A stretch of DNA of 46,865 bases from a virus, in IMG/VR virus record IMGVR_UViG_3300029923_000033, positions 1 to 46,865 of that record; one strand, 5' to 3'. Shown piece by piece: positions 219 to 18,381 of the stretch. Every line of letters begins with the position of its first letter. The stretch's first letter is position 1. A model generated the notes under the pieces. The model had not been told where the DNA came from. It saw only the letters and a list, made by a program, of their open reading frames with translations, and searched no databases. A program made the translations under genes and the position numbers.

Positions 219-614
219 ATGACAGACCTACTTCAAAACTTTTTCGATTCATCTGATCGAAACAGATGGATATACTTTACGCATATGAATGTATATGTTC
301 GAAAAAGTTGGCGTAACTATCATCATATTCAGTCAAGTTTGCATTATCAAACATGTCTGGATATTGCAACTGTCGATGTTGAAGAAGATTATCAACACAC
401 TGGACTTTTTAAGGAATTTCTAACACATGCTGAGAGTATTAATATTTTTCCGCTAATCATGGTCGAAAACGTTCATAATCCAGTGTTGCCAGAGTTCTTA
501 AAATCAGTTGGCTACGTTGAGTACAATAATTTTAGCTTTATTAAGTTCAATGATCACTGTAAGGAATATGATGATTGGCAAGCAATTATCGAATCTTTAA
601 AAGATAAACCATGA
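219..614 (+). CDS. GNAT-like acetyltransferase-fold protein
   Basis: A 131-residue protein. Its middle follows the GNAT pattern: a beta strand (LDIATVDVEEDYQHTGLF, about residues 47-64) leading into a loop where acetyl-CoA would bind, then ENVHNPVLPEFLKSVGY (about 83-99), which matches the strand 5/helix region ending in the familiar '…GY'. The usual R/QxxGxG/A loop is degenerate (DYQHTGLF), so activity is uncertain. The stop overlaps the RNA ligase start by 4 bp (ATGA), so the two are translationally coupled. Substrate is unknown. GNAT fold is inferred from pattern only. Confidence 0.55.
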   Translation: MTDLLQNFFDSSDRNRWIYFTHMNVYVRKSWRNYHHIQSSLHYQTCLDIATVDVEEDYQHTGLFKEFLTHAESINIFPLIMVENVHNPVLPEFLKSVGYVEYNNFSFIKFNDHCKEYDDWQAIIESLKDKP

Positions 615-1621
615 CAAGAGACGAATTCAGAGAAGGCGTGTTTGCCAGAGATAACCATAAATGTGTTATCTGTGGCAAACCTGCTATGGATGCGCATCAT
701 ATCTTAGAGCGAAGGCTGTTCGATAATGGCGGATATTTCTTCGACAATGGAGCATCTTTATGTTTCAATCATCATATTGAGGCTGAGCAAACTACGCTTA
801 GTTGTGACGAAATAAGATTGAAAGCTGGCATAACAAATATTGTAATTCCAGAGCATTTCTATGGCGATCAAACTTACGATAAGTGGGGTAATATTATTCT
901 ACCTACTGAACAACGTATTAAGGGTGAATTGTTTTACGATGAATCTGTTCAAAAAATATTGAAACAAGGTAACGTTTTAGACTTATTTCAAAAATATGTT
1001 AAGTATCAACGAACCTATCATTTACCTTGGAGTAACTTACTAAAGGATGATCGAATCATTAAGGACGATAGTAACTTTATAGGCAAGAGAGTAATAGCCA
1101 CTTTGAAAATGGATGGGGAAAACACTACCATGTATAACGACTACATTCATGCCAGATCATTGGAAAATGCTTCTCATGAGACAAGGAATTGGGTGAAAGG
1201 CTTATGGTCACAGATCGGTTACATGCTTGACGATAACATGCGAATTTGTGGCGAAAATCTTTATGCTCAACATTCCGTTAAATACGATAGTCTACCTTCA
1301 TATTTTATGATGTTCTCCATGTGGAGTGACAATACTTGCATGTGTTGGGATGAAACTGTTGAGTATTCAAAGATATTGGGTTTGGAATTAGTTCCAGTGA
1401 TTTACGATGGAATCTATAATAAGGATAAGATCATCGCAGCGTTTGAACCTCATAGGCTTACAAATGAGGGCTATGTGATCAGGATTGCCGATGAATTCAA
1501 TTATATTGATTTCAGAAGATCAATTGCCAAGTTCGTTAGACCTGAATTTAGACAAGCTGTCAACAATTCACATGGTCACTGGATTTCAAAAAAGATTGAG
1601 CCGAATGGTTTAAAGTTGTAA
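611..1621 (+). CDS. HNH nuclease domain fused to RNA ligase
   Basis: This 336-residue protein has two modules. Residues 18-55 form an HNH/zinc nuclease core: C18, C21, H29-H30, N46, C51 and H54-H55. Residues about 155-320 form a nucleotidyltransferase RNA ligase: motif I KMDGEN with nucleophile K166, motif III RICGENLYA (211-219), motif IV NEGYVIR (285-291) and motif V AKFVR (306-310). The ligase would adenylate K166 and seal RNA nicks with 3'-OH/5'-P ends. The HNH part could cut or simply bind nucleic acid. Fusion in one chain is seen directly; a cut-and-seal role on RNA is inference. It overlaps the upstream gene by 4 bp, and the next promoter overlaps its stop codon. Confidence 0.85.
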   Translation: MTRDEFREGVFARDNHKCVICGKPAMDAHHILERRLFDNGGYFFDNGASLCFNHHIEAEQTTLSCDEIRLKAGITNIVIPEHFYGDQTYDKWGNIILPTEQRIKGELFYDESVQKILKQGNVLDLFQKYVKYQRTYHLPWSNLLKDDRIIKDDSNFIGKRVIATLKMDGENTTMYNDYIHARSLENASHETRNWVKGLWSQIGYMLDDNMRICGENLYAQHSVKYDSLPSYFMMFSMWSDNTCMCWDETVEYSKILGLELVPVIYDGIYNKDKIIAAFEPHRLTNEGYVIRIADEFNYIDFRRSIAKFVRPEFRQAVNNSHGHWISKKIEPNGLKL

Positions 1622-2989: not shown

Positions 2990-3829
2990 ATGGGAAACAA
3001 AAAAGATTCATTAGGAGACAGGATTAAATCCAACTACGAAAATAGAACAAGATATCTGTTGCCAAGACGCACATACACTATGATCAGAATTGATGGAAAA
3101 TGCTTTAGTGCTTACACCAAAGGACTTATCAGACCTTTTGATATGAAGTTGGTCAATGATATGGATGAAACTGCAATCTATCTTTGCAAGAATATTCAGG
3201 GTGCTAAACTTGCTTTCGTTCAATCTGATGAAATTACCATATTGGTAACAGACTTTGACAGTTTAACGTCTGATGCGTGGTTCGATGGAAACATTCAGAA
3301 GATTACAAGCATATCTGCAAGTCTCGCTACGGCTAAATTTAATCAGCTTAGGCTACAAGGCTTTTTTGCTAACTATAGCGATAAAATTGTTCAAGGTAAA
3401 ACGAACATAGATATTCAAATATCTGATGATTTAAAGGCTTTTAAACTTGCCACTTTCGACAGTAGGGTGTTTACATTACCAACAGCTACAGAGGTCTCAA
3501 ATGCTTTTATTTGGCGTCAAAATGACACTGTGCGTAACAGTATTAGCTCAGTTGCACAATCTCTATTCAGTCACAAGGAATTGATGAATGTAAATACGAA
3601 TCAAATGCAAGAAATGTGCTTTCAAAAAGGCGTGAACTGGAATGATTTTGACCTTAAATTAAAAAATGGTAGGGTTATCATGAAAGTCGAAGAAGAATTC
3701 GAAACACCATTTAAGGGTGCTGAATTTAAGCAGTCCAGTTTTACACGTAGTAAGTGGAAAAGTGTTGGCGCACCAACCTTTACTGCCGATCATTCATTTC
3801 TGGATGCGCTGATTCCAAAGAACGATTAA
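2990..3829 (+). CDS. tRNA(His) guanylyltransferase-like protein (Thg1 family)
   Basis: A 279-residue 3'-5' nucleotide polymerase homologue. The palm motifs are clear: RIDGKCFSAYTKG with metal ligand D35, and VQSDEITIL with D80 and E81. The middle (RQNDTVRNSISSVAQSLFS) matches the helical region of Thg1 proteins. Eukaryotic Thg1 adds G(-1) to tRNA-His; bacterial and archaeal Thg1-like proteins repair or edit tRNA 5' ends against a template. Given the tRNA-like locus at 13.7-17.8 kb, 5'-end repair is the likelier role here (inference). A perfect-stem terminator directly follows. Confidence 0.92.
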   Translation: MGNKKDSLGDRIKSNYENRTRYLLPRRTYTMIRIDGKCFSAYTKGLIRPFDMKLVNDMDETAIYLCKNIQGAKLAFVQSDEITILVTDFDSLTSDAWFDGNIQKITSISASLATAKFNQLRLQGFFANYSDKIVQGKTNIDIQISDDLKAFKLATFDSRVFTLPTATEVSNAFIWRQNDTVRNSISSVAQSLFSHKELMNVNTNQMQEMCFQKGVNWNDFDLKLKNGRVIMKVEEEFETPFKGAEFKQSSFTRSKWKSVGAPTFTADHSFLDALIPKND

Positions 3830-5753: not shown

Positions 5754-6398
5754 ATGGCAAAATTAATTAGTGATAACTCAAGCAGTGAGCAAAAAAGAAG
5801 CCTTGCTAGAAAATTTATAGATGATATAGTTCATCACAGATTCCTAATTGTTGCATTAACAATTTATTTCGGAATCGCTTATGCTTTTATACCTCCACTG
5901 GTCAATCAACTGAAAGCATTAAAATCAATTAGCAAAAATTTATCTGGCGTAAACTATCATGCTGACAGACATAAGTCAATTAGTTTTGGGACTCATGAGT
6001 TTGCAGAACTAATACCATCAGATAGTATTCCTGATTTAATTAGATTGTTTAAAAAGGGCGACGATTTGGCAGATTATTGCGATGCTAACAACAGTCCCGA
6101 CATTGAAAGAGCAATTGGTAGTATGTGCCACTATCAAATAATATTCAAACGTGCCTCTAATATAAACTTCATATTAATTGCTCATGGTAATATTAACGTA
6201 TCATTCATTCCTAGTATTAAGTCTGGATATTTTACTGAAATTTTGACAAAAGATCGTGATAATTATTATAATACATTGAAAACAAGCACAGAAAAAATTG
6301 ATATCACAAACATTGGCATGGATAAGATCATCAACAACGATAAGATCATCAACAACGATAAGATCATCAACAACGATACAGTACAAACCATTAAATAA
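5754..6398 (+). CDS. Single-pass membrane protein with C-terminal tandem repeat
   Basis: 214 residues. A basic N-terminus is followed by one hydrophobic span (about 30-50, FLIVALTIYFGIAYAFIPPLV) and a soluble region that probably faces outward. The C-terminus contains the hexapeptide DKIINN three times, encoded by three exact copies of an 18-bp unit at 6321-6374. This could vary in number by slippage. No homology is recognised; it may be an inner-membrane phage protein. Confidence 0.75.
   Translation: MAKLISDNSSSEQKRSLARKFIDDIVHHRFLIVALTIYFGIAYAFIPPLVNQLKALKSISKNLSGVNYHADRHKSISFGTHEFAELIPSDSIPDLIRLFKKGDDLADYCDANNSPDIERAIGSMCHYQIIFKRASNINFILIAHGNINVSFIPSIKSGYFTEILTKDRDNYYNTLKTSTEKIDITNIGMDKIINNDKIINNDKIINNDTVQTIK
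6321..6374 (+). repeat. Three exact 18-bp tandem repeats in coding sequence
   Basis: The unit GATAAGATCATCAACAAC occurs at 6321, 6339 and 6357 and keeps the reading frame of the membrane protein gene. Confidence 0.97.
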
Positions 6399-13688: not shown

Positions 13689-13698
13689 TTGCTTATTT

Positions 13699-13728
13699 TT
13701 GTAACCTTTTCAAAGTTTCAACGTATAA
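13699..13728 (+). promoter_or_regulatory. Early-type promoter of the RNA locus
   Basis: TTGTAACC at 13699 and CGTATAA at 13722. The first RNA element begins at 13763, with a boxA-like sequence between. Confidence 0.87.
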
Positions 13729-13739
13729 GTAGAAAATAA

Positions 13740-13750
13740 GTTCATTAAAA
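13740..13750 (+). promoter_or_regulatory. boxA-like element
   Basis: GTTCATTAAAA resembles the boxA antitermination signal of rRNA leaders (GCTCTTTAA core). Related copies occur at 14297, 15086 and 16315, each before noncoding RNA. Confidence 0.45.
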
Positions 13751-13762
13751 CATTTAAGATAT

Positions 13763-13838
13763 GGCGGATTTTAGCTCAGTTCGGTAGAGCAGCCCAGCAA
13801 GGCAGGTCACTGGTTCGAATCCTTTACGTCCGCCGCCA
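13763..13838 (+). tRNA. Degenerate tRNA-like RNA A
   Basis: GGCGGA (13763-13768) pairs with TCCGCC (13829-13834), followed by GCCA, which could be discriminator plus CCA. A D-arm GCTC/GAGC and a T-loop TTCGAAT are present. The T-stem is poor, and two extra nucleotides sit on each side of the acceptor. The anticodon plus variable region is 17 nt rather than 22 and cannot form a 5-bp stem with a 7-nt loop, so no anticodon can be assigned. It is either a decayed gene or a deliberate tRNA mimic. Confidence 0.6.
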
Positions 13839-13843
13839 CATTC

Positions 13844-13857
13844 GCATGGGAACATGC
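13844..13857 (+). ncRNA. GGAA-tetraloop hairpin in spacer
   Basis: GCATG-GGAA-CATGC. A related hairpin with a 7-bp stem lies at 14928-14945 in a homologous spacer. It may be an RNA processing or stability element between two tRNA-like units. Confidence 0.6.
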
Positions 13858-13915
13858 AAGTTATCCATAATAAAGCTGTAATAACATATGATAAAAGCAG
13901 TATAAAAGTGGATAT

Positions 13916-13989
13916 GCGAGATAGCTCAGGTCTGGTAAGAGCGTGCCCACACATGTGGGCAAGGTCAGGTGTTCAAATCATCTTCTCGC
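13916..13989 (+). tRNA. tRNA-like RNA B with closed anticodon hairpin
   Basis: Six acceptor pairs (GCGAGA/TCTCGC), a D-arm (GCTC/GAGC), a good T-arm (AGGTG/CATCT with loop TTCAAAT) and a downstream ACA are present. Where the anticodon arm should be there is a 7-bp GC-rich hairpin, TGCCCAC (13944-13950) with GTGGGCA (13955-13961), leaving only a 4-nt loop. The flanking pair at position 1-72 is T/T. It cannot decode in the normal way as written. Confidence 0.65.
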
Positions 13990-14010
13990 TACAAATTAAA
14001 ATTAAAAATA

Positions 14011-14292
14011 ATGGAAAAATATGAAGCTGGCAATACTCAGCCTGAGTTTATAGCTCTAAGAGAACAGATTTGCAATTCGTTGGCGAATTTAAATGACAAT
14101 TTAAGTACGATTAATAGTAGAATTGATCTTCTAAATTTTAATCCTATTATAAAAGAGCCACGTTGCGAGGAAGAAGCTGATAAAGGCAAAGGTACAAGTG
14201 CTATTGATAATCTCCAATACATTCTCGATGAAATCGACAGACTTATTGTCCTTACAAATACTTCGAGAACAAATATTTGTAGATTTATCTAA
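14011..14292 (+). CDS. Hypothetical protein within RNA locus, 93 aa
   Basis: ATG 14011 follows an A-rich stretch right after RNA B, and is preferred to an in-frame GTG inside that RNA. The protein is helical (LREQICNSLANLNDNLSTINSRIDLL) with an acidic middle and a second helix (AIDNLQYILDEIDRLIVL), probably an oligomeric coiled coil. No family is recognised. Confidence 0.7.
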   Translation: MEKYEAGNTQPEFIALREQICNSLANLNDNLSTINSRIDLLNFNPIIKEPRCEEEADKGKGTSAIDNLQYILDEIDRLIVLTNTSRTNICRFI

Positions 14293-14296
14293 TAAA

Positions 14297-14308
14297 GTTC
14301 ATTGAAAA
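14297..14308 (+). promoter_or_regulatory. boxA-like element
   Basis: GTTCATTGAAAA lies just after the stop of the gene at 14011 and before a 550-nt noncoding stretch. Confidence 0.45.
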
Positions 14309-14577
14309 TATTGTGAAAAGCGGCATCCGATTTTAGCGGCTGTGCGAGTCACATTAAGGCGGTAAACATGATTTAACATGTTGTAATTTATTACGGTTAT
14401 CCTACTGCCTTCGAAAATAAACTCTTTTGCTAAAAGCAAAACGACAGTATAAGTTACCTAAAGGTCAGTGTATAGACTGACGATTCAAGGGGTTTGGCGC
14501 AACCAGACTCAATCAAAACTTAGTAGCCTTAACATGGCTATGTACTGAGATCATGCAAAGATCGTGTTTTGTGGATA
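14309..14577 (+). ncRNA. Noncoding stretch with branched structures
   Basis: A 9-bp helix (14356-14364 with 14403-14411, one G-T pair) encloses two hairpins, AACATG/CATGTT and GTAA/TTAC, a cloverleaf-like fold of 56 nt. Downstream are further hairpins: TTTTGC/GCAAAA, GTCAGT/ACTGAC, GGTT/AACC and TAGCC/GGCTA. No open reading frame of note is present. The density of perfect stems is far above the rest of the window. Function unknown. Confidence 0.55.
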
Positions 14578-14645
14578 GATGGTATGGCACTTGAAAAAAT
14601 GCCGCTGTTAGCCATTACGTGATCGGTTAGATTCCGATTACCATT
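14578..14645 (+). tRNA. tRNA-like RNA X, 68 nt
   Basis: GATGGTA pairs with TACCATT, and directly stacked on it is a perfect T-arm ATCGG-TTAGATT-CCGAT. A D-like arm GGCA/TGCC has a 10-nt loop. The remaining region contains CTGTTAG, which looks like an Asn (GTT) loop, but the flanking sequence cannot form the stem. The anticodon plus variable region is 17 nt, 5 short of normal, as in RNAs A and D. Confidence 0.5.
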
Positions 14646-14669
14646 TCCTTGCAAGAACAAAAGAGATAG

Positions 14670-14738
14670 AAAAGGTTCTGAGGCTCAAACCTCATTGAAG
14701 TCGACGGATGATATGAGGACTTAATCTCAGACCTTTTT
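14670..14738 (+). terminator. Large hairpin with T-run, possible terminator
   Basis: AAAAGG plus TCTGAG (14670-14682, one bulged T) pair with CTCAGA plus CCTTTT (14726-14737), followed by T and G. A nested hairpin TGAGG/CCTCA lies inside. It may end transcription after RNA X, or be processed. If it terminates, boxA-type antitermination would be needed to reach the RNAs downstream. Confidence 0.45.
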
Positions 14739-14844
14739 GTTAAAATATTCGCAGGTATATCACGATACGTGCAAATTTGCTCTTTTATGACCAATGTCTA
14801 ATAACGTGATTGACGACAATAGGCTTAAAGAGTGTACAAAGGAA

Positions 14845-14912
14845 GTACCGTAGCTCAGTTGGATAGAGCGTCTTCTAACGAGGAAGGTCATAGGTTCGAA
14901 CCCTGTCGGTAT
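14845..14912 (+). tRNA. tRNA-like RNA C with 4-nt anticodon loop
   Basis: GTACCG/CGGTAT gives six acceptor pairs. The D-arm GCTC/GAGC and T-arm ATAGG/CCTGT with loop TTCGAAC are canonical. The anticodon region folds best as TCTTC-TAAC-GAGGA, a 5-bp stem with a 4-nt loop, three nucleotides short of a normal loop. Reading it as Arg (ACG) would need A at position 33 instead of U and would leave only a 2-nt variable region. The pair at position 1-72 is A/A. Length 68 nt before the 3' AACA. Confidence 0.65.
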
Positions 14913-14927
14913 AACAATTATGATACC

Positions 14928-14945
14928 TTGCATAGGAATATGCAA
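14928..14945 (+). ncRNA. GGAA-tetraloop hairpin in homologous spacer
   Basis: TTGCATA-GGAA-TATGCAA, matching the hairpin at 13844. Both spacers continue with similar A-rich sequence containing repeated TAATAA/AATAAAA before the next tRNA. Confidence 0.62.
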
Positions 14946-15000
14946 ATTGCTTATAATAAAAACGTAATAAGCTAGAATAAAAGCGTAATAAAAATGAGTA

Positions 15001-15076
15001 TGTGGAATAGCTTAGTCTGGGCTAAAGCACTACATTGATACTGTAGAGATCGTTGGCTCAAATCCAACTTCCGCAA
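15001..15076 (+). tRNA. tRNA-Ile (GAT)
   Basis: All arms form: acceptor TGTGGAA/TTCCGCA (one T-G pair), D-arm GCTT/AAGC, anticodon arm CTACA/TGTAG with loop TTGATAC (anticodon GAT, U at 33), T-arm GTTGG/CCAAC. The T-loop CTCAAAT departs from the usual TTC start. CCA is not encoded (ACTA follows). This is the only clearly conventional tRNA in the locus. Confidence 0.87.
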
Positions 15077-15085
15077 CTAAAAGAA

Positions 15086-15097
15086 GTTCTTTGAAAA
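15086..15097 (+). promoter_or_regulatory. boxA-like element
   Basis: GTTCTTTGAAAA is the best match in the locus to the antitermination/leader motif found before Bacteroidota 16S rRNA. It lies 10 nt after tRNA-Ile and before noncoding RNA. Confidence 0.5.
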
Positions 15098-15280
15098 TAA
15101 ACGCCTAAGAGTGTGAGAGGAAGAAGCCAACGGTAAGACGGTCAACTCACAAATCTCTGCTCTATGGTGTGTTTTATTGTGAATTAAAAACAGGCGTAGT
15201 ATCATAAAGGCATCTATGTATGTCACGCATAGACTTATCGCCGATTGTCAATTTGATACAGTTCACAAAAATATAACAAA
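15098..15280 (+). ncRNA. Noncoding stretch with nested helices
   Basis: TGTGAG (15112-15117) pairs with CTCACA (15146-15151). Then GTGAA (15179-15183) pairs with TTCAC (15262-15266), enclosing GTATC/GATAC (15199-15203 and 15255-15259) and a 6-bp hairpin TCTATG/CATAGA (15213-15218 and 15228-15233). No gene is seen. The nesting suggests a defined RNA of about 90 nt. It matches no RNA family I know. Confidence 0.5.
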
Positions 15281-15355
15281 GAGTGCCACATAAAGTCCCC
15301 GATGTCTTGGGGATCGACGGCATAAGTGGTTTAGCGACTCAAAAGTTCGGCACTC
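15281..15355 (+). ncRNA. tRNA-sized RNA Y closed by a 7-bp helix
   Basis: GAGTGCC (15281-15287) pairs perfectly with GGCACTC (15349-15355), enclosing 61 nt with hairpin TCCCC/GGGGA and an irregular T-arm-like end. The size equals a tRNA but there is no D-arm or anticodon arm. A GGGGATCGACGG segment resembles the 5' part of tmRNA, but no tag reading frame follows. Confidence 0.45.
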
Positions 15356-15425
15356 ACGGAATTTGTAACCGTATTTTAAGGACTAAAATTATGTCAAGAC
15401 TGACGTGGGAAAGACCTCAAAAATT

Positions 15426-15493
15426 GGCTAGATAGTTCAAGTTGGATAGAACGTCTGGATCGAGAAAGTCGCAGGTTCGAACCCTGCCTAGCC
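15426..15493 (+). tRNA. tRNA-like RNA D, 68 nt, no anticodon loop
   Basis: GGCTAG/CTAGCC acceptor, D-arm GTTC/GAAC and perfect T-arm GCAGG-TTCGAAC-CCTGC are present. Between position 26 and the T-stem only 17 nt remain; the best local fold is TCT/AGA with a 6-nt loop GGATCG, so no anticodon loop can form. AGCA follows. Same length and same 5-nt deficit as RNA X. Confidence 0.65.
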
Positions 15494-15517
15494 AGCAAAT
15501 TTAAAATTCTTACAGTC

Positions 15518-15787
15518 ATGGGAAAAGCATTAATTGCTATATTAGTTATTATATTTTTATATGTTGGTCTACATAGATATGAACAAATTCAGAACTATGA
15601 GGCAAAAGTAAAAACATACAATACAATTGTCGTACTTAATGATTCAATAAGAAACGAAATTGCTGCTGGTAAGGCTTATTATAATTATCTTATTTATAAA
15701 AGAGAAGTTATAAGAGAATGCAACAGACGTAATGTCGAATTGGACATGGACGCAATTGACTTAGCATACGAGCAATTAAAAAAATAA
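15518..15787 (+). CDS. Small membrane-anchored protein, 89 aa
   Basis: An N-terminal hydrophobic segment (ALIAILVIIFLYVGL, about 4-18) is followed by a long helix (RYEQIQNYEAKVKTYNTIVVLNDSIRN) and a charged tail. It is probably anchored in the inner membrane with a periplasmic or cytoplasmic coiled coil. It is embedded in the RNA locus. No family is recognised. Confidence 0.7.
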   Translation: MGKALIAILVIIFLYVGLHRYEQIQNYEAKVKTYNTIVVLNDSIRNEIAAGKAYYNYLIYKREVIRECNRRNVELDMDAIDLAYEQLKK

Positions 15788-15790
15788 TAT

Positions 15791-15916
15791 ATGGGACACT
15801 ATTGCGATTATTACGATTTTTACAGTGAGAGAGATCAGATTTTAAAAATGCGTAGAGAGAAAAAGCACAAGGTATCCTGTGCGATAGGTCATTCAAAACG
15901 TAAAAAGAAACGTTAA
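15791..15916 (+). CDS. Very small basic protein, 41 aa
   Basis: MGHYCDYYDFYSERDQIL starts an aromatic, acidic N-terminus; the C-terminus is very basic (CAIGHSKRKKKR). ATG 15791 lies 3 bp after the previous stop in an A-rich context. The charge split suggests RNA or ribosome binding. The gene is short but the position and composition support it. Confidence 0.55.
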   Translation: MGHYCDYYDFYSERDQILKMRREKKHKVSCAIGHSKRKKKR

Positions 15917-16314
15917 AATATGAACGTGGTTTCATAAGGTGTTTTTCAATCGTATACAGGTTGAGAGCATTGAGGGGAGTTTTAAGAGTGAAAGTATAGG
16001 AAGATCGATTAATTCCTAATGATAGCGATTAATAGCGGCTCGTTGCCGCACATGTTTCACCATGAGGGCTTTTGAGGGTATGCATACTTTCTTAAGTTAT
16101 TGACTGCCAAGTCTAAAACGCTGAGATATCTAAGGCGATGCGGATTATAGTCTCTAAAACTCAACAGAATAAAGATAAGTTCAGTTCTGCTTAAGGTAAA
16201 TAGTAACATGCGTAGTATGTTAAAGGTCAATACCGAGATCGTTATTTGCTGAGAGTTCAGGCACTGCCAGAAGGTAGGTTAGCCAAATTATGACTTGGTA
16301 AGTCAGACCAGAAA
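15917..16314 (+). ncRNA. Noncoding stretch with helix-closed RNA
   Basis: GAAAGTAT (15990-15997) pairs with ATACTTTC (16084-16091), closing a 102-nt element with inner hairpins AGGAA/TTCCT and GCGGC/GCCGC. Downstream are TAACAT/ATGTTA (16204-16222) and GACTT/AAGTC with a 3-nt loop near 16291. No reading frame of note was seen. It may hold several small RNAs. Confidence 0.5.
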
Positions 16315-16326
16315 TGTTCTTTAAAG
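16315..16326 (+). promoter_or_regulatory. boxA-like element
   Basis: TGTTCTTTAAAG, close to the boxA consensus, lies 4 bp before tRNA-like RNA Z. Confidence 0.48.
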
Positions 16327-16329
16327 GTT

Positions 16330-16406
16330 TGCGATGTGGTTCGTAGTGCTATAGTGGAATGTAAAACTGCATAAGTCAGCTTGTCGGTGAAAATCCGATC
16401 ATCGCA
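16330..16406 (+). tRNA. tRNA-like RNA Z, possible Cys ancestry
   Basis: TGCGATG/CATCGCA pairs perfectly (two further pairs extend it outward) and stacks directly on GTCGG-TGAAAAT-CCGAT, a T-arm of normal size. The D-stem GTTC/GAAT has an overlong 14-nt loop. A CTGCATA segment resembles a Cys (GCA) loop, but the local stem is only ACT/AGT, with 5 nt between. Decoding is doubtful. Confidence 0.5.
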
Positions 16407-16438
16407 AATCTTTTTTTAATTTTTAAGTACGTAATATC

Positions 16439-16624
16439 ATGGGAAGAACACTAGAAGACTTTGACAAATTCACTACACAAGACTTATTCGACGAAATCCT
16501 TAGCATGGAGAAAGGCGATCTGTATGATGGTTGTAGTAGCAAAGGCTTACAGCGTGAACAAAATGCCGCAAAAAAAGTGTTCGGAGAACGAATGCAAAAA
16601 TTAGGATTTGATTGGATTTTATAA
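16439..16624 (+). CDS. Hypothetical protein, 61 aa
   Basis: Small helical protein (MGRTLEDFDKFTTQDLFDEIL … EQNAAKKVFGERMQKLGFDWIL). ATG 16439 follows an AT-rich stretch. No family is recognised. The next gene starts 8 bp after the stop. Confidence 0.65.
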   Translation: MGRTLEDFDKFTTQDLFDEILSMEKGDLYDGCSSKGLQREQNAAKKVFGERMQKLGFDWIL

Positions 16625-16632
16625 AATTAAAG

Positions 16633-16887
16633 ATGAAGAAAAACACAATATTTATAATTATAATGCTTGCTCTATGTCTTGCTGTCGCAGCATATTCCGC
16701 TTACAGCGTATCAAGTAGTTATGATAGAATGATTTTAGCTATTGACAAGGCATCTAACGATGCATATGTTCAAGGTTTGGTTGACGGTATGAACTTTAAA
16801 AACATAAATGATACGTCAAAAATCAATTACAGATATAAATTGGTCTTAGTGGGGGATTCCATTCTAAAGCCAATCAAAAAAAAATAA
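16633..16887 (+). CDS. Signal-anchored small protein, 84 aa
   Basis: ATG 16633 (MKKNTIFIIIMLALCLAVAA) is chosen because it gives a typical basic-hydrophobic signal anchor; the frame also opens 21 bp upstream. The remainder is a short polar domain ending in basic residues. No family is recognised. Confidence 0.7.
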   Translation: MKKNTIFIIIMLALCLAVAAYSAYSVSSSYDRMILAIDKASNDAYVQGLVDGMNFKNINDTSKINYRYKLVLVGDSILKPIKKK

Positions 16888-16898
16888 GAACACCACTC

Positions 16899-16989
16899 GG
16901 CTGACGTTTGGGTTCGATTAATAGCTGATGAAGTATCAGGGTTGTTAGAACCATGATGAAATATGGGAATTTACTTTGAGTAGTCGGCT
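16899..16989 (+). ncRNA. Cloverleaf-like noncoding RNA
   Basis: GGCTGAC (16899-16905) pairs with GTCGGCT (16983-16989), enclosing three hairpins: CTGAT/ATCAG, GGTT/AACC and CCAT/ATGG. A T-rich run follows. It fills the gap between a stop codon and the next promoter and could double as a terminator. Confidence 0.45.
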
Positions 16990-17005
16990 ATTTTTATTGT
17001 ATTTT

Positions 17006-17035
17006 TTGTAACAAATTTTAATTTGTAACGTATAA
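17006..17035 (+). promoter_or_regulatory. Early-type promoter of second RNA unit
   Basis: TTGTAACA at 17006 and CGTATAA at 17029. RNA E starts 16 bp after that C, so its 5' end is close to the predicted transcription start. Confidence 0.86.
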
Positions 17036-17044
17036 GTAATAAAT

Positions 17045-17179
17045 GGCGGAATAGCGAAATTGGTACACGTTATATTTGGACTATGGGCGATGTTTAACGA
17101 TAAGACAAACTCTAAATTCCATTTATAAGCTCAGACTTATCGCTTACGAGTGCTACTGGTTCGAGTCCAGTTTCTGCCA
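17045..17179 (+). tRNA. Leu-type tRNA with about 50-nt insertion
   Basis: GGCGGAA/TTCTGCC acceptor, a Leu-style D-loop (GCGAAATTGGTACACG) and a perfect T-arm ACTGG-TTCGAGT-CCAGT are present, then ACA. The total is 135 nt against about 85 for tRNA-Leu. The anticodon stem TTATA can pair either with TATGG at once (loop TTTGGAC) or with TATAA at 17124-17128, which would leave a 49-nt intron-like insert. An inner pairing CGATAAG/CTTATCG also exists. The anticodon after removal cannot be read with confidence. Confidence 0.6.
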
Positions 17180-17252
17180 CAGGTCGGGTAATGCCCGAAT
17201 GAACTTTGGAGTGCGAGGTAGCCAAAGCCAGATCGAAAAAATGCTCGCCCAT

Positions 17253-17331
17253 GTCGATTTAGCTCAGTCTGGTAGAGCAGCGTAAATCCTACAACGGTGG
17301 TTGGTCGGAAGTTCGAATCTTCCATTCGGCA
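17253..17331 (+). tRNA. tRNA-like RNA F with enlarged anticodon region
   Basis: GTCGATT/ATTCGGC acceptor (one T/T mismatch), D-arm GCTC/GAGC with GG in the loop, perfect T-arm GGAAG-TTCGAAT-CTTCC, and a following ACA. The anticodon plus variable region is 27 nt, 5 more than normal, and no 5-bp/7-nt arm is found; the best hairpin is CAAC/GTTG with loop GGTG. The flanks suggest an ordinary tRNA in which the centre has changed. Confidence 0.6.
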
Positions 17332-17418
17332 CAATGCAGTATTCTCCGAAAGGAACGAGCATTAATAGTAACATCGCCAGCGAGGTTCGCACTAAAGCTT
17401 TAGCAACTGGCATTTTAT
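17332..17418 (+). ncRNA. Noncoding spacer with three-way junction
   Basis: GCCAG (17376-17380) pairs with CTGGC (17407-17411), enclosing hairpins CGA/TCG and CTAAA/TTTAG. No gene is present. Confidence 0.45.
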
Positions 17419-17620
17419 GGAGTTATGCGACAGGGATTTGTCGCACCTATTTATAGGATTGTAATGACCTGTTTATAGGATGGCAATGATGCAGAAAAGA
17501 ATTATTGAGTAGTAACATTTAGCTGATGTTACGATTCAACCGATCTGTAATCATAAATAAAAATAGCAATTGCGCAGTTGCTTATTTTAGCCTTTGGGTT
17601 CGACTCCCTTTAGCTTCACA
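17419..17620 (+). ncRNA. Interrupted tRNA-like RNA, about 200 nt
   Basis: GGAGTTA (17419-17425) pairs with TAGCTTC (17611-17617, two G-T pairs), followed by ACA. Just before is a T-loop TTCGACT on a weak stem GGG/CCC. A 6-bp hairpin GCGACA/TGTCGC follows the 5' acceptor strand. Between lie a 22-nt tandem repeat, a 7-bp hairpin GTAACAT/ATGTTAC and a CTGTAAT segment resembling a Tyr (GTA) loop. It may be a class II tRNA broken by insertions, or an unrelated structured RNA. Confidence 0.45.
17446..17489 (+). repeat. 22-bp tandem repeat
   Basis: Two copies (17446-17467 and 17468-17489), 19 of 22 positions identical. Each contains a CCTA/TAGG-type hairpin. Confidence 0.9.
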
Positions 17621-17623
17621 TTA

Positions 17624-17785
17624 GGAGAGGCGGCTCATAAAAATCTGGAAAATCCAGATGCTGAAAAGTATAAAAAATTCTTCTCCGCACAGTACATGAG
17701 GTATAATTGTTCGCTGTATATGGCTTAAGTAACATATATGGAATCGTCTTAAAAAATGAGCAAGGCTGAGACATACCTCTCCACA
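17624..17785 (+). ncRNA. Helix-closed RNA G with 3' ACA
   Basis: GGAGAGG (17624-17630) pairs perfectly with CCTCTCC (17776-17782), then ACA as in several tRNA-like units. Inside is a hairpin TCTGGA-AAA-TCCAGA. There is no T-arm, so tRNA ancestry (Ser-like acceptor) is only a guess. Confidence 0.42.
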
Positions 17786-17792
17786 TTAATAC

Positions 17793-17834
17793 ACCTTCCA
17801 TGCCTCTCTAAGATGCACACTTGGAAGGTTTTTT
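17793..17834 (+). terminator. Terminator of the RNA locus
   Basis: ACCTTCCA (17793-17800) pairs with TGGAAGGT (17822-17829), followed by a run of T. It closes the RNA locus before protein genes resume. Confidence 0.82.
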
Positions 17835-17852
17835 CTTTAAAAATACATTGTT

Positions 17853-18093: not shown

Positions 18094-18381
18094 ATGAATC
18101 AAAAATTAGATCGATTATTAAAGGGTGAGACATTCACTACAAACGAAAAGGGTAATTCAATGTCGCCTCTCATTAAGTCTGGTCAGGATCATATACTTGC
18201 GCCTGTTAAACTAGAAGAACTCGTTAATGGCGATATTGTTTATTGCAAAGTAAGGGGTAATTTTTATACGCATCTAGTAAAGGCAATCAGCAAAGAAAGA
18301 GGTGTCTTAATTGGCAATAATCGGGGTAATATCAATGGATGGACTAAACAAGTCTACGGTAAAGTAATTAAAATAATTTAA
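18094..18381 (+). CDS. S24/S26-type serine peptidase-like protein, 95 aa
   Basis: GNSMSPLIKSGQ carries the nucleophile serine (S22) of the LexA/signal-peptidase fold, and HLVKAIS (K63) sits about 40 residues later where the general-base lysine is expected. The end WTKQVYGKVIKII forms the closing strand of that fold. It has no DNA-binding or membrane domain, so it is a stand-alone peptidase domain. It could process a phage or host protein, or mimic a LexA-type domain; the substrate is unknown. Confidence 0.75.
   Translation: MNQKLDRLLKGETFTTNEKGNSMSPLIKSGQDHILAPVKLEELVNGDIVYCKVRGNFYTHLVKAISKERGVLIGNNRGNINGWTKQVYGKVIKII

Follow-up and report, generated by a model that had tools for sequence, protein, structure and literature searches.

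What does a phage make from some four kilobases of mostly noncoding DNA in an otherwise gene-dense region? The question was raised by positions 13696–17838 of an IMG/VR viral contig (IMGVR_UViG_3300029923_000033; 46,865 bases), the whole of which is called here the window. The initial annotation had described a string of tRNA-like and other helix-closed RNAs, set in DNA about 95% coding elsewhere; the contrast was real, with 23% coding in 13699–17834 against 77–82% outside according to a codon-usage model; by this strict model the figure given for the outside was too high. The locus consisted of two transcription units with phage promoters and was about three quarters noncoding. Most of its RNAs had the acceptor, D and T arms of a tRNA and no usable anticodon arm, which was replaced by a stub or by another RNA, and the pairing of the scaffold was maintained between two phages despite substitutions. 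We read the locus as a two-unit phage operon of stable, non-decoding RNAs built on tRNA scaffolds, probably acting as ligands or decoys and partly in counter-defence, an interpretation held with about even confidence.

Seven elements (A, B, D, E, H, L and M) contained acceptor, D and T arms in cloverleaf order, pairing in 6–7/7, 4/4 and mostly 5/5 positions, respectively. Together with one normal tRNA (F) they are the following (nt, nucleotides; bp, base pairs; CM, covariance model; L013, the sister phage introduced below):

13764–13834, plus strand: tRNA-like A; tRNA CM 28.5 bits, just below cut-off; acceptor 6/7, D arm, T arm 3/5
13915–13991, plus strand: tRNA-like B; flagged '???' by ARAGORN; D and T arms intact
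14578–14648, plus strand: tRNA-like D; 7-bp acceptor, D arm and T arm (loop TTAGATT), without recognisable anticodon arm
14844–14915, plus strand: tRNA-like E; tRNA CM 39.8 bits; nearest to tRNA-Arg(ACG), resembling a phage tRNA-Arg
15001–15077, plus strand: F, normal tRNA-Ile(GAT); 61.5 bits; Ile according to ARAGORN
15425–15495, plus strand: tRNA-like H; tRNA CM 35.7 bits; acceptor, D and T arms perfect
17045–17179, plus strand: tRNA-like L, a Leu-like scaffold; tRNA CM 31.6 bits; ortholog L013:4206-4338
17253–17332, plus strand: tRNA-like M; tRNA CM 41.8 bits; acceptor 6/7, D and T arms kept

ARAGORN recognised a standard tRNA only at 15001–15077 (Ile, GAT) and flagged three more as '???'. 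Rfam gave six tRNA-like matches (five above the cut-off and the one at 13765 with 28.5 bits) as well as an abiF RNA; every match was inside the locus, and none fell on element D. No other family exceeded its cut-off in the whole window, and at a relaxed threshold neither introns nor riboswitches nor large ornate RNAs appeared; the locus as a whole matched no known intron or single RNA family.

A canonical anticodon arm (5-bp stem, 7-nt loop, U33) was present in 0/7 of the tRNA-likes, the tRNA-Ile F being excepted, while the same script recovered it in 122 of 146 ARAGORN tRNAs from eight related loci, and in 133 of the 146 with one mismatch allowed. In A and H the arm was a 3-bp stub with a 6-nt loop, the L013 ortholog of A (L013:1492-1560; tRNA CM 40.1 bits) having 3 bp and a GAAA loop, and only 18 nt lay between the D and T arms of A, D and H. 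B possessed a 5-bp hairpin with a 6-nt loop (alternatively, 6–7 bp with a tetraloop), and E kept the anticodon stem and the 7-nt loop length (TAACGAG) without U33. In L the arm was replaced by an 83-nt region, whose apical ~35 nt were nearly unchanged in L013 with the stem beneath rewritten. The anticodon region of M was non-canonical and 28 nt long, compared to 39 nt in its ortholog (L013:4411-4501; 45.0 bits), where the script did detect a 5-bp hairpin with U33 within the longer insert.

A small S24-like gene at 18094–18381 served as marker gene. It had 47 relatives, many of them on contigs of 100–360 kb, and DNA matches to phage records of 635 and 735 kb, and because of this the window is identified, from sequence, as a fragment of a jumbo phage; the contig search found no relatives of the marker in genome contigs. 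The host probably belongs to the Bacteroidota. A second contig (IMGVR_UViG_3300037280_000106; 61,797 bases) matched window positions 16907–38241 at 100% and contained the same tRNA-likes. One divergent relative with the array was found, the sister phage L013, which keeps much of it (contig IMGVR_UViG_3300025140_000080; 95.8 kb); its marker protein was 84% identical, and its shared coding DNA outside the locus 70–78% identical, to that of the window. Within the locus, the two had segments 15176–15267, 15844–16421, 16439–16628, 17036–17684 and 17785–17838 in common.

Structures were predicted from each phage alone and the same pairs were then inspected in the other phage. Where both bases had changed, 46 pairs were kept and 16 broken, against 151:223 in coding alignments of both phages taken in 120-nt pieces (Fisher p=8e-7), the two prediction directions being interdependent; the window-derived structures alone gave 25 kept to 6 broken (p=3e-5). 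Conserved covarying helices, which the initial annotation had named as the support to be sought in related phages, were present in L013 for the alignable elements: A, I, K, L, M, N, O, the abiF RNA and the block at 16096–16330. Profile searches with each conserved element in relatives returned ordinary tRNAs or nothing.

Related jumbo phages carried inserts of 50–230 nt where the anticodon arm belongs. Such scaffolds lay in tRNA-rich regions of L038 (3825, 4330, 4998), L136 (5899, 6160, 6491), L126, L132, L128, L125, L123 and L122; they were picked by eye for good tRNA consensus, the scaffold descriptor giving 0–4 false matches per shuffled set and several long A+T-rich ones in coding-like sequence. 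Two copies in L136 had the same scaffold ends and differing inserts (78 and 51 nt). Copies of a Y-RNA-like repeat, which may bind Ro60, came after a Ro60/TROVE gene of the sister phage (L137:1649-3614, equal to G002:C1:54648-56613; core GGCGTTCG-N5-GTTACTTC); the repeat stood alone just downstream of the gene, and one copy occupied the anticodon position of a tRNA scaffold (42.6 bits, 64-nt insert). Since this repeat occurs both ways, an RNA unit that exists alone is also carried by a tRNA scaffold. The repeat motif was absent from the window and from the RNA locus of L013. Another tRNA-like family, perhaps a tRNA-Arg without D arm, was observed in relatives (L040:14076-14154, L040:14300-14378, L020:11808-11886 and L041:17924-18014), with an anticodon-like hairpin (loops CTTCTAA, CTTCGAA) straight after GTAGCCGAG and a conserved TAAYTGGAGCTGAAAA at the place of the variable region.

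The last RNA of the locus was of a different kind:

17794–17838, plus strand: abiF RNA motif (RF03085); 38.1 bits at an Rfam gathering cut-off of 37; with a T-run, doubling as terminator of unit 2

Judged by its sequence, it is an orphan abiF-type (antitoxin-type) RNA. Its L013 ortholog scored 40.5 bits (cut-off 37), and an AbiF-type gene (Abi_2, PF07751) was found in none of 47 related phage records. The abiF RNA of Clostridioides difficile acts against the AbiF toxin, neutralising it in trans as well as in cis, and a structure of AbiF with RNA is known from Prevotellaceae (PMC12373285). The phage RNA resembled this system in the core GCCUCUC..GAUGC.CA and the closing stem, with both phages above the cut-off, and differed from it (RF03085; PMC12373285) in being a single copy that terminates an operon; the phage records searched contained no AbiF gene. 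An antitoxin RNA carried by a phage without its toxin might parallel the pseudo-ToxI of phage PhiTE (PMC3475682), likewise a phage noncoding RNA that resembles a bacterial RNA antitoxin and bypasses a toxin-based defence; the toxin family, however, is another one, and the phage abiF RNA has a predicted counter-defence role.

Among the tRNA-likes and after them lay further structured RNAs:

14354–14412, plus strand: element C, miniature cloverleaf closed by 9 bp
15176–15267, plus strand: 92-nt RNA; L013 copy 100% identical although the flanks are unrelated
15279–15357, plus strand: element G, RNA closed by 7 bp
15921–16062, plus strand: element I, tRNA-like 3' end with CCA encoded
16096–16330, plus strand: structured block, about 90% identity to L013
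16328–16418, plus strand: element J, 9-bp acceptor-like stem and T-arm-like hairpin, then TCTTTTTTT
16917–16998, plus strand: element K, hairpin and T-run; covarying stem ATAGCTGA/TCGGCTAT versus ATAGTTGA/TTGACTAT
17419–17618, plus strand: element N, 7-bp acceptor stem and T-arm around ~170 nt of conserved multibranch RNA
17622–17690, plus strand: element O, helix-closed hairpin covarying in L013

Folding z-scores of single elements were -4.8 for N, -4.0 for C, -3.8 for K, -3.4 for B and G, -3.1 for abiF and -3.0 for O. Element N retained 52 consensus pairs in L013 with three double compensations, the first acceptor pair among them; it was tried as a tmRNA and rejected, the tmRNA model fitting only the T-arm tail (10.5 bits). 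A 22-nt tandem duplication (ACCTATTTATAGGATTGTAATG) at 17445–17488 of N was present in L013 as a single copy. The T-arm-like hairpin and the acceptor-like helix of element I (the helix partly by eye) occurred in L013 as well, and an overlapping 8-bp helix (15990–15997/16084–16091) was identical there; the insert of element J differed in length between the two phages. The 92-nt RNA had a GTGAA/TTCAC stem and a possible pseudoknot (GGCG/CGCC x GTATCA/TGATAC, by eye), and the RNA, sought by a 20-nt exact core in 85,000 bacterial and archaeal genomes and also in phages, plasmids and viral contigs, was found in the two phages only. No relatives were found of elements C and G. Most of the closing helices listed by the initial annotation do exist; in place of the one given at 16899, the supported, covarying helix was 16922–16929/16983–16990. 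Closing helices by themselves were mildly above chance with 7-bp arms 20–210 nt apart (60 versus 39+/-8 in shuffles) and not enriched over shuffles with 8- and 9-bp arms. As stand-alone evidence, global folding energy and the closing helices were discarded as too weak; strong evidence came from the tRNA model, from conservation and from compensated changes.

Two promoters and one terminator had been proposed to frame the locus, in agreement with the promoter copies at 13696 and 17003 and the terminator at 17794–17838. The promoter motif (TTTTTGTAAC-N16-CGTATAA) had six copies in the window against 0 expected in shuffles. Unit 1 ended near the hairpin and T-run of K, which is probably its terminus, and unit 2 at the abiF hairpin and its T-run. 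Unit 1 also contained four plus-strand sites close to a boxA-type antitermination motif (13740, 14297, 15086, 16316), and L013 had two exact copies, at 1587 and 3040; they may function in antitermination. Six small proteins had been announced; five small open reading frames (ORFs; lengths in amino acids, aa) were inside the locus and one more lay just outside (17853):

13696–13728, plus strand: phage promoter P1, TTTTTGTAAC-N16-CGTATAA, opening transcription unit 1
14011–14292, plus strand: small ORF, 93 aa, without Pfam match
14297–14307, plus strand: boxA-like GTTCATTGAAA, 1 mismatch
15086–15096, plus strand: boxA-like GTTCTTTGAAA, exact
15518–15787, plus strand: small ORF, 89 aa, one N-terminal hydrophobic stretch (by eye)
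15791–15916, plus strand: small ORF, 41 aa, basic; similar ORF in L013 (by eye)
16316–16326, plus strand: boxA-like GTTCTTTAAAG, 1 mismatch
16439–16624, plus strand: small ORF, 61 aa; L013 protein 95% identical
16633–16887, plus strand: small ORF, 84 aa, N-terminus hydrophobic
17003–17035, plus strand: phage promoter P2, TTTTTGTAAC-N16-CGTATAA, opening transcription unit 2

In the sister locus a DUF4326 gene was inserted (L013:3239-3544) that the window locus did not have. Two 86-nt spacers, each leading from one tRNA-like to the next (window 13844–13929 and 14930–15015), were 72% alike and opened with a GGAA-tetraloop hairpin, the stems differing by a compensated pair (GCATG/CATGC, GCATA/TATGC).

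Elsewhere in the window two other genes were noticed:

window 611–1621: HNH-RNA ligase fusion, N-terminal HNH-like domain and C-terminal RNA ligase domain (motif KMDGEN)
window 2990–3829: Thg1-like enzyme

A LAGLIDADG gene and the Thg1-like gene adjoined the ligase fusion; in the examined flanks of relatives the ligase was not found together with either Thg1 or insert-bearing scaffolds. Other coding genes of the window included rIIA/rIIB-like proteins and a glutathionylspermidine-synthase-like protein.

Compared to phage tRNA arrays (RF00005), the locus was similar in its acceptor, D and T arms and in clustering within a jumbo phage; the arrays of related phages, some near the same marker gene, were ordinary, in contrast to the locus, where the anticodon arm was stubbed or replaced in 7/8 and other structured RNAs were interspersed. 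A close design is the engineered tRNA scaffold (PMC3753655), with acceptor, D and T arms and another RNA at the anticodon position, through which the laboratory version functions; that one is a laboratory construct, whereas the phage design appears natural and lies within an operon. Like tmRNA (RF00023), elements N, I and J consist of a large RNA with an acceptor/T domain of tRNA type; unlike it, they had no recognised tag reading frame, and no tmRNA match above the cut-off was found in this phage or its sister (G001, G002). Among 16 related phage records, nine had a tmRNA above the Rfam cut-off (G037, G009, G058, G042, G051, G049, G018, G056, G048; best 140.9 bits). The GOLLD and ROOL phage RNAs (PMC12286853) are also structured and close to tRNA islands, and a GOLLD of a related phage with 32 tRNAs (L020:5957-6421; 180.5 bits) enclosed a tRNA-like segment (6028–6097); the window, in contrast, had no Rfam match to GOLLD or ROOL. 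No description of such arrays was found in the open-access text searched, which is weak evidence of novelty.

The operon most likely yields long untranslated transcripts, on which the boxA-like sites could keep the polymerase. The tRNA processing machinery, comprising RNase P, RNase Z or exonucleases and the CCA enzyme, might then, supplied by the host, mature the tRNA-shaped parts into abundant RNAs unable to decode. Their tRNA body could occupy proteins or toxins that act on the tRNA acceptor or elbow, or, alternatively, they could act via the RNA that replaces the anticodon arm, and the abiF RNA would serve as ligand or decoy for the AbiF toxin.

Other explanations start from the tRNA-likes as genuine tRNA genes. 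The array may once have been normal, like that of relatives with their 20–50 ordinary tRNAs, and now consist of pseudogenes in the middle of being lost, which would suit the still tRNA-Arg-like element E and the weak T stem of A. Yet the anticodon arm was hit in 7/7 and the remaining arms were still paired, partly by compensated changes, while the A and M scaffolds were kept in both phages and the inserts were conserved. Decay accounts for the loss of anticodon arms, not for a uniform loss with maintained scaffolds, and we regard it as unlikely. That the inserts are introns, cut out by a phage nuclease and joined by a phage RNA ligase to give normal tRNAs, is very unlikely: the phage does encode the HNH-RNA ligase fusion and the Thg1-like enzyme, and the inserts do occupy the usual site of tRNA introns, but this is inapplicable to A, D and H because the 18 nt separating their D and T arms are too few for an anticodon arm and an intron, Rfam detected no group I/II intron in or around the tRNA-likes, and the ligase was not found in the flanks of insert-bearing relatives.

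Defence nucleases that cleave anticodons are well known, and altered anticodon loops might let working tRNAs evade them and still decode. Such a reading could fit E, which retains the 5-bp stem and 7-nt loop, and perhaps B with its 6-nt loop; E, however, has no U33, and in A, D, H, L and M no arm could reach the codon, which makes it highly improbable for the array. The tRNA-shaped parts might also mimic the tRNA module of bacterial Y RNAs and serve a phage Ro60, as suggested by the Ro60/TROVE gene that the sister phage carries, away from this locus, with its Y-like repeats, one of them inside a tRNA scaffold. Against this, the repeat motif is missing from both RNA loci, YrlA scored 18.7 bits against a cut-off of 69, and the 61.8-kb contig of this phage has no Ro60 gene; this reading appears decidedly unlikely.

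The operon of non-decoding, tRNA-scaffolded RNAs has its own points against it. The array was common to two genomes only, both of them fragments, and canonical tRNAs may sit elsewhere in the incomplete phage genome. Elements B, C, D, E, G and H were outside the alignable part, with no ortholog among the sequences compared, so that what supports them is their fold or the model. Averaged over the noncoding part, the folding z-score was unexceptional (-0.92 versus -0.56 outside), and the abiF match was one bit over the cut-off in a hairpin that is also a terminator. The role as protein ligand or decoy is suggested by shape and precedent.

What the initial annotation overlooked were the unusable anticodon arms, the abiF identity of the last hairpin and the insert-bearing tRNA scaffolds in other jumbo phages. 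Taken further, jumbo phages might have naturally evolved a 'tRNA scaffold' for diverse functional RNAs, with the locus as an operon that directs these, along with an orphan AbiF antitoxin RNA, at the defences of the host, a proposal that we make tentatively and consider doubtful. The orphan abiF RNA would be an example of counter-defence, aimed at a toxin family with links to the origin of Cas13. The usual explanation for phage tRNAs is codon usage or the replacement of tRNAs cut by defence nucleases; non-decoding RNAs with a tRNA body suggest that the fold has a further use, serving as a platform that is processed and stable or as a decoy, and many of the 'odd' tRNAs called in large phage genomes, which tRNA finders usually discard, may deserve a second look.

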